This document shows positions 31,762-36,335 of a stretch of DNA of 49,146 nucleotides, one piece after another. The notes under the pieces are model-generated. The model was not told the origin of the DNA. It saw only the letters and a program-made list of their open reading frames with translations, and ran no database searches. Each line of letters opens with the position of its first letter. Within the stretch, counting starts at the first letter, position 1. The position numbers and the translations under genes are program-made. The DNA comes from Candidatus Latescibacterota bacterium (GTDB lineage Bacteria; Latescibacterota; UBA2968), in the NCBI GenBank assembly GCA_022823725.1, contig JAJEHL010000018.1:1-49146 (forward strand), given 5' to 3'.

Positions 31762-32511
31762 ATGCCTCTCAAACCCGAACAAATCGCCGAATTCAAAGCA
31801 TTGGGATATGTCCTCGTACCTAATCTAATCGATCCATCGATGTTGGACAATTGGCGCGCGCAAATTCGCGCCAAATTTGGCGATCTCTCTGACCCCGTCC
31901 AGCAAAACGCCGCAGGACCGCCCCAACAACACCGCGAAGACATCACCATATTGAGAGGCTTTCGCTTTTCCCCAGAAGAAACACAACTCGTCAACCAGCC
32001 CAAAGTCAAAGCCATTGTCGATCACATGGGCGAGGGACAATTTTGCGGTGAAGACGGCAACCTGCGCCTCCTCTTGCCCGAATCCGAATGCAAATGGCAC
32101 TTGCCAGAGCGCGGACACATCGACGGTTATCTCGGCAAGCGACGAACCATGCCTTTTCTCCTTGGATTGGCAACCTATATCTACGACGTGGAACCGCGCG
32201 GCGGTGGCACGGTCTTCTGGCCGCGTAGCCATATCAAATCATGGAAATTTCTTCGCAAATATCCCCATCACCTCAACCACAGCTTTAAGGACCACCCTGA
32301 ATATCTCGACATGGTCAAAGATATTCAACCCGTTGAACTGCATGCAAAAGCAGGCGACGTCATCTTCTGGCACTGCAACATCCTGCACGAAACCTCTCAA
32401 AACACCAGCAACAACATCCGCCATGGCCTTTTCGCCCGCCTGCAGCACAAAGACCAGGAGACATTCCGAGACGAAATTCCCGATGATCTATGGAAACGCT
32501 GGCGGATTTAA
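31762..32511 (+). CDS. Phytanoyl-CoA dioxygenase (PhyH) family protein
   Basis: A 249-residue Fe(II)/2-oxoglutarate dioxygenase. The iron motif is H119-I-D121 (ERGHIDGYLG), and the distal His is in DVIFWHCNILHETSQN. The beta-helix core shows RGGGTVFWPRSH. ATG 31762 follows the sulfatase stop by one base. A ribosome site AAAGGAG for the next gene lies directly after this stop. The operon suggests it acts on the product of the sulfatase, or on a co-substrate. The enzyme depends on reduced iron, which could link it to the redox-type selenoprotein behind it; that link is inference. Confidence 0.9.
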   Translation: MPLKPEQIAEFKALGYVLVPNLIDPSMLDNWRAQIRAKFGDLSDPVQQNAAGPPQQHREDITILRGFRFSPEETQLVNQPKVKAIVDHMGEGQFCGEDGNLRLLLPESECKWHLPERGHIDGYLGKRRTMPFLLGLATYIYDVEPRGGGTVFWPRSHIKSWKFLRKYPHHLNHSFKDHPEYLDMVKDIQPVELHAKAGDVIFWHCNILHETSQNTSNNIRHGLFARLQHKDQETFRDEIPDDLWKRWRI

Positions 32512-32528
32512 TAAAAAGGAGATTTAAC

Positions 32529-32879
32529 ATGTCAAAAATCACCATCTACCACAACGACAACTGAAGCAAATCCAACGGCGCAATGGACATATTGCGTGCT
32601 GGCAACGTCGAGTTCGACGTTATTGAATATATGAAAACACCGCTGAGCGAACAGGACTTGAGAAAATTTCTCGCACTCCTGCCCGGTGAACCCAAAGACC
32701 TGATTCACCCCAGTTCATTCGAAAAACTGGGGCGCGACATGGATGACTACAACACGCCCGATGCACTCGTCGGCTTGCTCATAGAACACCCCGAAGTCAT
32801 GAATCGCCCCGTGTGCATTCGCGGAGATCGCGCAGTCATTGCCCGCCCCTCAGAAGCCATACATGAACTTCTCGACTAA
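32529..32879 (+). CDS. ArsC/YffB-family selenoprotein (in-frame TGA at the catalytic Cys position)
   Basis: Read from ATG 32529 (ribosome site AAAAGGAG), the frame gives a 116-residue ArsC-like thioredoxin-fold protein if TGA 32562-32564 is read through. The N-terminus MSKITIYHNDN-U12-SKSNGAMDILRAG aligns with the ArsC HNPxCxxSR loop, and codon 12 is exactly the catalytic Cys12 of E. coli ArsC. Downstream, RPVCIRGDRAVIARP holds R93 and R106, near ArsC R94 and R107; the R60 position is His. A SECIS-like hairpin follows (32572-32602), so selenocysteine is the best reading. It is last in a sulfatase-PhyH operon. A simple Cys-to-stop pseudogene is the alternative. An internal start at 32583 would lose the active-site loop. 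Confidence 0.8.
32572..32602 (+). promoter_or_regulatory. Candidate bacterial SECIS element
   Basis: Seven bases after the TGA, CCAACGGCGCAAT (32572-32584) folds onto ATTGCGTGCTGG (32591-32602). The upper stem has seven consecutive pairs (GCGCAAU with AUUGCGU, one G-U), then a bulged G, then further pairs with one A-C mismatch. The apical loop GGACAT (32585-32590) starts 20 bases after the TGA and begins with G. This fits the known bacterial SECIS pattern of a short loop with a G in its first two positions, about 16-37 bases from the UGA. Confidence 0.75.
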
Positions 32880-32885
32880 AAAAAT

Positions 32886-32925
32886 AGCCGCCGAGATATG
32901 AGAACCTCGGCGGCTGTTTTCTTTT
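32886..32925 (+). terminator. Strong terminator between convergent genes
   Basis: AGCCGCCGAG (32886-32895) pairs perfectly with CTCGGCGGCT (32906-32915) and is followed by a T-rich tail. It closes the sulfatase-PhyH-selenoprotein operon and probably serves the convergent aldolase gene too. Confidence 0.95.
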
Positions 32926-34706: not shown

Positions 34707-34810
34707 TTGACATACTCCCAACGCTAAAGCATTTGGGATTCTCGGTGCTTCAGCGGGGATTGTGGTATCACCAGCGACAGCATACTATACGAGCTATGTC
34801 TTACGTCGCC
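34707..34810 (-). ncRNA. Candidate omega-RNA (TnpB guide RNA scaffold)
   Basis: The bases from the tnpB 3' end to the element's right end carry a conserved terminal structure: GGGATTC, then a CTAAAG loop between arms, then CTCCCA on the plus strand (34711-34740). TnpB guides use this scaffold plus about 16-20 bases of flanking DNA. The guide here would be the reverse complement of 34687-34706. The 5' limit of the RNA inside tnpB is not visible. Confidence 0.65.
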
Positions 34811-35904
34811 TCCTCCAAAGGTGGATGTCCCCACCTGTGAATGTTTATTGCTGCGTTGAGGTCTCTGTCTATGACGAAACCACAATCGCAACGGAATGTT
34901 CTGTCTCGTAGTTCAAGGTCTTCTTTGACCGTGCCACAAGCGGAGCAGGTCTTAGAAGTAGGCAACCATTGGTTGAGTTGCACAACCTTTTTGCCTGTCT
35001 TTTGTGCGACATACTTGAGTGTGGCCAAGAAGTCAAAGAAGCCGAGGTCACTAATTTTCCTGCCCCATAGCCTTTGCATGGCTTTGATATTGAGTTTTTC
35101 AAAGCACAGGATGTCGTATTGCTTACAAAGGTGGCGAGCCAGCCACCAGTGGTATTCTCTGCGTTGGCAGGCAATGCGTCTATGTATTCTTGCAAGATTG
35201 ACCCTTGCTCTGTGGCGGTTGTTGCTGCCCTTCTGCTTGCGAGAGAGGTTACGGTTGGCTTGCTTGACCTTACGAGAATTGCGAGAAAAGAACAAAGGCG
35301 ACTGTATTTGTGTATTGTCGCTGGCAGTCAAGTATGTTTTCAAGCCGAAGTCAAAGCCTGCGGTTTTACCGATCTTAGCAATGTCCTGCTTGATACCCTC
35401 TGCTTTTGCAACAACACACAGCCACAGGTCGCCTACGCGGTCACGAATGATTGTGACTGTCTTAACAGTTTCTGCATCGAAGTCTCTGCTTTTGTGATAC
35501 CTGAAGACTCGCTTGCCTATACGCACTTTGTTGCCGTCCAAAAACTTGTAGCCAGCTTGTTTGAGTGTATAGGACAGATACCGAAAGCGAGACCGAAACG
35601 TGGGTGGTCGCTTGTTGTCTTTGGCAAAGAATTTCTGGTAGCCAAAGTCTATGCGCTCTATCACATTCTGCAATGCCTGAGACGGCAACAAGCACCAGCG
35701 AGCAAAGCGGGCAGTCTTTTTTAGCTTTGTCAAATGCTTGATCAGTGTGAACTTGCCCGGGTACTTGCCAAACCTTTGATAGTATCGCTTGTTCAGGGCA
35801 ATGAAGTGGTTATACACACCTGCAAAGGCGTCTATATCTCGGTGGAGATACCTGTTGCGTTCACAGCGACTATACAGCTTGTACTTGTAGGTAAGATAGG
35901 ACAT
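34801..35904 (-). CDS. tnpB: TnpB RNA-guided nuclease
   Basis: A 367-residue TnpB. ATG 35904 is chosen because it overlaps the tnpA stop (TGATG). RuvC-like residues are present: D185 (GFDFGLK), E269 (CFEKLNIKAM) and DRD (346-348, in VIDRDLNAAIN). The zinc finger CSAC...CDCG (about 320-342) lies between RuvC II and III. These are the catalytic residues of known RNA-guided TnpB enzymes, so it looks active. TnpB cuts the empty donor site and helps keep the element after excision. It has 29 bases of extra frame upstream that are inside tnpA and are not used. Confidence 0.95.
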   Translation of the reverse strand: MSYLTYKYKLYSRCERNRYLHRDIDAFAGVYNHFIALNKRYYQRFGKYPGKFTLIKHLTKLKKTARFARWCLLPSQALQNVIERIDFGYQKFFAKDNKRPPTFRSRFRYLSYTLKQAGYKFLDGNKVRIGKRVFRYHKSRDFDAETVKTVTIIRDRVGDLWLCVVAKAEGIKQDIAKIGKTAGFDFGLKTYLTASDNTQIQSPLFFSRNSRKVKQANRNLSRKQKGSNNRHRARVNLARIHRRIACQRREYHWWLARHLCKQYDILCFEKLNIKAMQRLWGRKISDLGFFDFLATLKYVAQKTGKKVVQLNQWLPTSKTCSACGTVKEDLELRDRTFRCDCGFVIDRDLNAAINIHRWGHPPLEEAT

Positions 35905-36335
35905 CAAACGCCTTTCTGATTCTGCACATATGTCTTGAGGATTTCCAGCGTCACGTATCCAGCAGACGAAACAAATTTTGAGCGTGTCCACAATGACGGC
36001 AACCGGCTTTTGAGTTCTGGATACTTCTTCCGCAATTCATGTGCTGTGAAACTTTTAATTTTAGCAATGACAGCATTAACAGCATATTGAGGATTAACCG
36101 AAAGGAGTAAATGCACATGGTCGGACATTGTTTCGACTTCTATTAGCTCAAATCCGTAGGTTTTTTCTTTTGACTTGACCAGTGCTTTAAAATCTTCCTG
36201 CATTTGGTCAGAAAGCACAGCCCTACGGTATTTCGTGCAAAAAACAATATGGTAGTAACAGGAATAGAGTGCGTTGTGTGTGCATTGATACTTTTGATCA
36301 GGGTCTTTTAATCGCACAACAAACCCCCTTGACAA
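35904..36335 (-). CDS. tnpA: IS200/IS605 TnpA (Y1 HUH transposase)
   Basis: A 143-residue single-strand transposase. The HUH motif is H73-V-H75 (SDHVHLLLSV) and the catalytic tyrosine is Y136 (LKTYVQNQ). The start is a TTG at 36335 or an alternative GTG a little downstream; the ribosome site is unclear. Length matches the family. It recognises the left-end hairpin at 36346 and the right-end hairpin and moves the element as single-stranded DNA next to short target words. No defect is seen. Confidence 0.9.
   Translation of the reverse strand: MSRGFVVRLKDPDQKYQCTHNALYSCYYHIVFCTKYRRAVLSDQMQEDFKALVKSKEKTYGFELIEVETMSDHVHLLLSVNPQYAVNAVIAKIKSFTAHELRKKYPELKSRLPSLWTRSKFVSSAGYVTLEILKTYVQNQKGV

Follow-up and report, generated by a model that had tools for sequence, protein, structure and literature searches.

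The ArsC-like gene examined here lies on a 49,146-nucleotide stretch of Candidatus Latescibacterota DNA (the window) and very probably encodes a selenoprotein of the ArsC family, in which TGA codon 12 would be read as selenocysteine (Sec) under the direction of a SECIS element and SelB and Sec12 would be the catalytic residue. The frame (Table 1) runs from MSKITIYHNDN through the TGA into SKSNGAMDILR and on to HELLD and the terminal TAA, with one internal stop. In a phmmer alignment the TGA coincides with Cys12 of E. coli ArsC (1jzw and others, E=3e-14) and homology continues on both flanks, in agreement with the initial annotation, which had placed a single in-frame TGA at the catalytic cysteine. 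Its reading of the product as a Sec-dependent oxidoreductase, in which both Sec insertion and redox chemistry are predicted from sequence, draws support from the recoding machinery of the genome, the conservation of the codon, the exchange of Sec and Cys among homologues and the hairpin that follows the TGA.

Table 1. Features of the ArsC-like selenoprotein locus (window coordinates).
Feature	Position	Strand	Basis or remark
Upstream neighbour, phytanoyl-CoA dioxygenase (PhyH) family	31762..32511	+	adjoins the selenoprotein gene in part of the genus only
Shine-Dalgarno AAGGAG ahead of the ATG, genus-conserved	32516..32521	+	sequence; upstream bases of relatives
Predicted ArsC-like selenoprotein gene, 116 residues with Sec12 (UxxS motif), stop TAA	32529..32879	+	sequence, Pfam, AlphaFold
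TGA codon 12, very probably read as selenocysteine	32562..32564	+	TGA/Cys exchange among homologues
Bacterial SECIS-like hairpin	32572..32602	+	folding, codon null, published model
Intrinsic-terminator-like hairpin (AGCCGCCGAG/CTCGGCGGCT), then T-rich run, directly 3' of the stop	32886..32915	+	sequence reading

A functional link between the PhyH neighbour and the ArsC-like gene is improbable. Among the neighbours, PhyH, sulphatase, HpcH and aldo-keto reductase genes recur within the genus only, and in part even there, and are absent elsewhere, so that no function was deduced from operon context. The window also contains an IS200/IS605-type element (34801-36335, - strand) that encodes TnpB, with Cas12f1-like TNB and OrfB_IS605 domains, and the Y1 transposase TnpA.

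Orthologues at a minimum of 61% identity are encoded in 22 of 64 Latescibacterota genomes, and every one of the 22 has exactly one stop, a TGA, at codon 12; Candidatus Latescibacterota MAGs contain relatives of the window protein at 92-97% identity, and a scan of viral contigs for relatives found none. Of the 22 orthologue-bearing genomes, 20 yielded a SelB, and the two in which selB was not detected are highly fragmented (about 430 and 780 contigs); among 17 genomes outside the class selB is present in one and the ArsC-like selenoprotein gene in none. The same subfamily occurs in Myxococcota and Actinomycetota, with TGA in some members and Cys in others, and SelB-like matches were obtained in all five genomes checked among those with loci from these phyla, four of them above the curated cut-off. 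Codon 12 of 66 homologues is TGA in 32 (a count that includes the second ArsC-like gene of the genome, described below), TGC in 28 and TGT in 6, with no other codon, so that Cys, as had been proposed for relatives of this gene, takes the place of Sec in all 34 non-TGA homologues. Comparison of the window gene with its relatives gives dN/dS values of 0.08-0.24, indicative of purifying selection. When codon 12 is masked in the tree computation, the Sec proteins of Latescibacterota form one clade (100/99) beside those of Myxococcota; the alignment comprises 117 columns and the deeper forks are poorly resolved. Two genomes, G019 and G027, encode a Cys ArsC in addition to the Sec UxxS form, an indication that neither form is a simple replacement of the other. 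In the phylum of one Myxococcota Sec relative (L062), the ArsC-like match in many genomes is shorter and contains a single TGA, begins at residue 5-13 of the query and has an open frame of 101-105 aa; these may be further Sec forms or may represent stops upstream of the true start.

The genome to which the window belongs, as contig 37, measures 5.34 Mb and is 98% complete, and the search for selA, selB, selC and selD located all four genes in it. selA adjoins selB on contig 31, and contig 25 carries a tRNA-Sec with anticodon TCA (UCA), which scores 68.5 bits against the Rfam tRNA-Sec model, with ARAGORN concurring, and is adjoined by selD, which has an in-frame TGA of its own in the motif SCGGU. 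Just upstream of selD is a gene of the AhpC-TSA/redoxin family (TlpA-like; L025:2700-3269 on contig 25, - strand) with TGA in frame within a W-U-G-C motif, likely a selenoprotein gene clustered with selD and tRNA-Sec. Contig 14 holds a second ArsC-like gene (L002:1474-1830, - strand), again with TGA at codon 12 and with the motif U-S-S-C (UxxC); its product belongs to a Spx-like branch, has about 30% identity to the window protein and is probably a further selenoprotein (compare NF041106).

These data bear on three other readings of the TGA. One base separates TGA from TGC or TGT, and the codon could thus be a Cys-to-stop mutation in a decaying arsC; however, the TGA is identical across 22 species and recurs in other phyla, it is the only stop in a frame under purifying selection, and the Sec machinery is present. 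The conservation of TGA and frame effectively excludes such a pseudogene, which we consider extremely improbable. Translation could also begin at the in-frame ATG at 32583 (Met19), producing a 98 aa protein from which the active site is missing. Many relatives, however, have Leu, Ile or Gln in place of Met19, conserved residues precede this ATG, as does a strong ribosome site, and the shorter product would have none of the invariant active-site loop; an internal start was rejected on the variability of residue 19 and on these upstream features, and its likelihood is very slight. Finally, a TGA within a frame could mean that the organism reads this codon as an ordinary amino acid, in a Trp or Gly code. 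Against this, the neighbouring genes as well as selA and selB are open under table 11, the genome has a tRNA-Sec, and the in-frame TGAs observed fall at redox positions (in the two ArsC-like proteins, SelD and a thioredoxin-like protein), on which grounds code reassignment was rejected; its probability is close to negligible.

The recoding of codon 12 as Sec is further supported by the hairpin downstream of it. The initial annotation had described a hairpin of seven pairs with a GGACAT loop 20 bases past the TGA, and its coordinates and spacing are confirmed: the stem is formed by 32578-32584 and 32591-32597, the loop (GGACAU) by 32585-32590, a short lower helix pairs 32572-32574 with 32600-32602, the loop lies 20 nt from the UGA and the MFE is -11.4 kcal/mol. 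The bSECIS model specifies a loop of 3-9 nt with G in the first two positions, a stem of 4-16 bp, a distance of 16-37 nt from the UGA and an MFE <= -7.5 kcal/mol (PMC13188914); the window hairpin lies within all of these limits as quoted there. Together with a codon-null signal that is consistent across genera, this bears out the SECIS-like character that had been ascribed to it. A search with Rfam at gathering thresholds, covering the window and two loci, gave no matches, and a strict scan for simple hairpins left some relatives (for example L043 and L047) without a SECIS at the expected place.

On a dinucleotide shuffle the window hairpin alone is unexceptional (z=-0.23). We judged a synonymous-codon null, in which the protein and the codon usage are held, to be the better null, and against it, with SECIS geometry imposed, the window hairpin has p=0.021. 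Nine genus-level representatives of Latescibacterota give a mean z of -1.93 (Fisher p 1e-6) and eight Sec genes of Myxococcota and Actinomycetota one of -2.52 (p 6e-9), as compared with -0.61 when the Cys relatives within the subfamily are tested and -0.17 with the Cys ArsC of Latescibacterota. When the test is slid along the Sec genes it yields -2.22 for codons 13-26, -1.53 for codons 21-34 and between -1.2 and +0.2 beyond. The excess of hairpin strength therefore peaks just past the UGA in the Sec genes and is nearly absent from the Cys homologues, and both the TGA and a hairpin downstream of it are conserved in the clade, as the Sec reading had implied. Pair counts in the register of most genera revealed two-sided changes at 4 of 9 pairs, a result reached in 0 of 500 shuffles, and lower counts in slid registers; in the window's genus the stem register is shifted by two relative to the other genera, and in that register covariation alone is not significant. 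The codon test is the stronger evidence, since it includes Cys and offset controls and the pair-change counts rest on related sequences.

As for the family, the small protein matches Pfam ArsC (PF03960), a family of thioredoxin-like fold, with 37.4 bits against a cut-off of 24, and an AlphaFold model from the family (pLDDT 85.7) superimposes on E. coli ArsC 1i9d with a TM of 0.85. Its score of 78.2 bits against TIGR00014 (NCBIfam arsC, glutaredoxin) lies below the equivalog cut-off of 106.05, and the Myxococcota Sec relative L062 scores 104.7 bits. Arg60, Arg94 and Arg107 of E. coli ArsC are reported to be essential for the arsenic adduct (PMC3169414); the Latescibacterota Sec protein has two residues of this triad, which is thus incomplete. 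The equivalents of Arg94 and Arg107 show no variation. All 22 Latescibacterota Sec forms carry His at position 60, where almost every relative from other phyla, whether Sec or Cys, has Arg.

The initial annotation had read His60 and Asn16 correctly in the window sequence and had taken both to point to a substrate other than arsenate. This proposal is supported in part: the His60 change is clade-wide, but the invariant Arg94 and Arg107 leave either arsenate or another compound as the possible substrate. Asn16 is no argument on the substrate because it is specific to the window's genus, and position 16 is Arg in many sister genera. We give somewhat less than an even chance to a selenoprotein with a YffB/Spx-like thiol role or with glutathione-dependent reduction of a non-arsenate substrate, a reading that concerns the substrate alone and is compatible with Sec recoding. 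It is favoured by His60 and by the score below the arsC cut-off, by a search of the genome that found no Acr3 arsenite exporter, by neighbours that include no ars gene, and by the binding of glutathione by YffB proteins, in which the Arg triad is lacking (PMC3169414). In contrast to YffB, however, Arg94 and Arg107 are invariant here, and among solved structures the nearest by sequence and fold search belong to Grx-type ArsC, Spx and YffB being more distant. The score and the absence of Acr3 from the search results leave an arsenate role unproven. It is conceivable, if on balance slightly doubtful, that the Sec12/His60 clade of Latescibacterota is a distinct, neofunctionalised selenol reductase that is typical of these bacteria and whose substrate is not arsenate; the separate Cys ArsC kept beside the Sec form in G019 and G027 would, just as tentatively, form part of that picture.

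In the mechanism that we propose for the Sec-containing protein, UGA codon 12 would be decoded as Sec by SelB and Sec-tRNA(Sec), with insertion directed by the SECIS hairpin inside the coding sequence just past the UGA. The Sec12 selenolate would be the catalytic nucleophile of the UxxS site and, by analogy with ArsC, would attack the oxidised substrate, either arsenate with an altered adduct-binding residue or another oxidised compound, after which glutathione/glutaredoxin or some other small thiol would restore the selenolate. Grx-linked ArsC is regenerated by an external thiol, and as a second conserved Cys is absent from the UxxS site in the family alignment, the same route might be expected here. 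In the genome, one glutaredoxin scores above the Pfam cut-off, besides the probable second ArsC-like selenoprotein, and two proteins fall into the GCS2 family, to which gamma-glutamylcysteine synthetases and other ligases belong; a glutathione-type system is thus possible.

A Sec-containing UxxS arsenate reductase has been known since 2005, when 14 sequences were described from the Sargasso Sea (PMC1088965); the GOS survey of 2008 distinguished ArsC 1 (UxxS, 77 sequences) from ArsC 2 (UxxC, 42 sequences) (PMC2398784), so that the ArsC selenoproteins of marine metagenomes, mentioned in the initial annotation, are indeed in print. The protein also figures in catalogues of 2022 and 2026 (PMC9312934, PMC13188914). 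In work on the Latescibacterota of sponges, arsC is reported with selenium unmentioned (PMC12993501), and among papers retrieved for Latescibacter- with selenoprotein or selenocysteine, none concerns the present protein by title or abstract. The spread of the gene through Latescibacterota and the clade-wide change of Arg60 to His thus appear to be unreported. These results assign to lineages that possess the full Sec machinery an ArsC-like selenoprotein mainly represented by unassigned marine reads, and reveal a clean Sec/Cys exchange inside one subfamily that spans three phyla. Automatic annotation would shorten or miss such genes, and the equation of arsC with arsenic detoxification in these bacteria may not extend to the window protein.

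Compared with E. coli R773 ArsC (1i9d, 1jzw), the protein has the same fold, equivalents of His8, Asn9, Ser15, Arg94 and Arg107 and a catalytic residue likewise at position 12, which is Cys in E. coli and would be Sec here; it differs in having His60 for Arg60 and, in the window's genus, Asn16 for Arg16, and in its length of 116 residues versus about 140, as it lacks the C-terminal extension. YffB (Bm-YffB, PMC3169414) is likewise an ArsC-like protein of 116 residues with an incomplete Arg triad, of which it retains one residue, whereas the window protein retains two. The NF041106 ArsC family (seleno)protein, the 'Arsenate reductase 2' of GOS, is also ArsC-like, but it has UxxC rather than UxxS and occupies a separate Spx-like branch; it is the second ArsC-like gene of the genome, on contig 14, that resembles it. 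The UxxS ArsC of the Sargasso and GOS data (COG1393/pfam03960) shares with the window protein, as compared by description, membership of the ArsC family, Sec in place of the catalytic Cys, the UxxS motif and a SECIS downstream, and may differ from the clade described here, which belongs to Latescibacterota and has His60 in place of Arg60.
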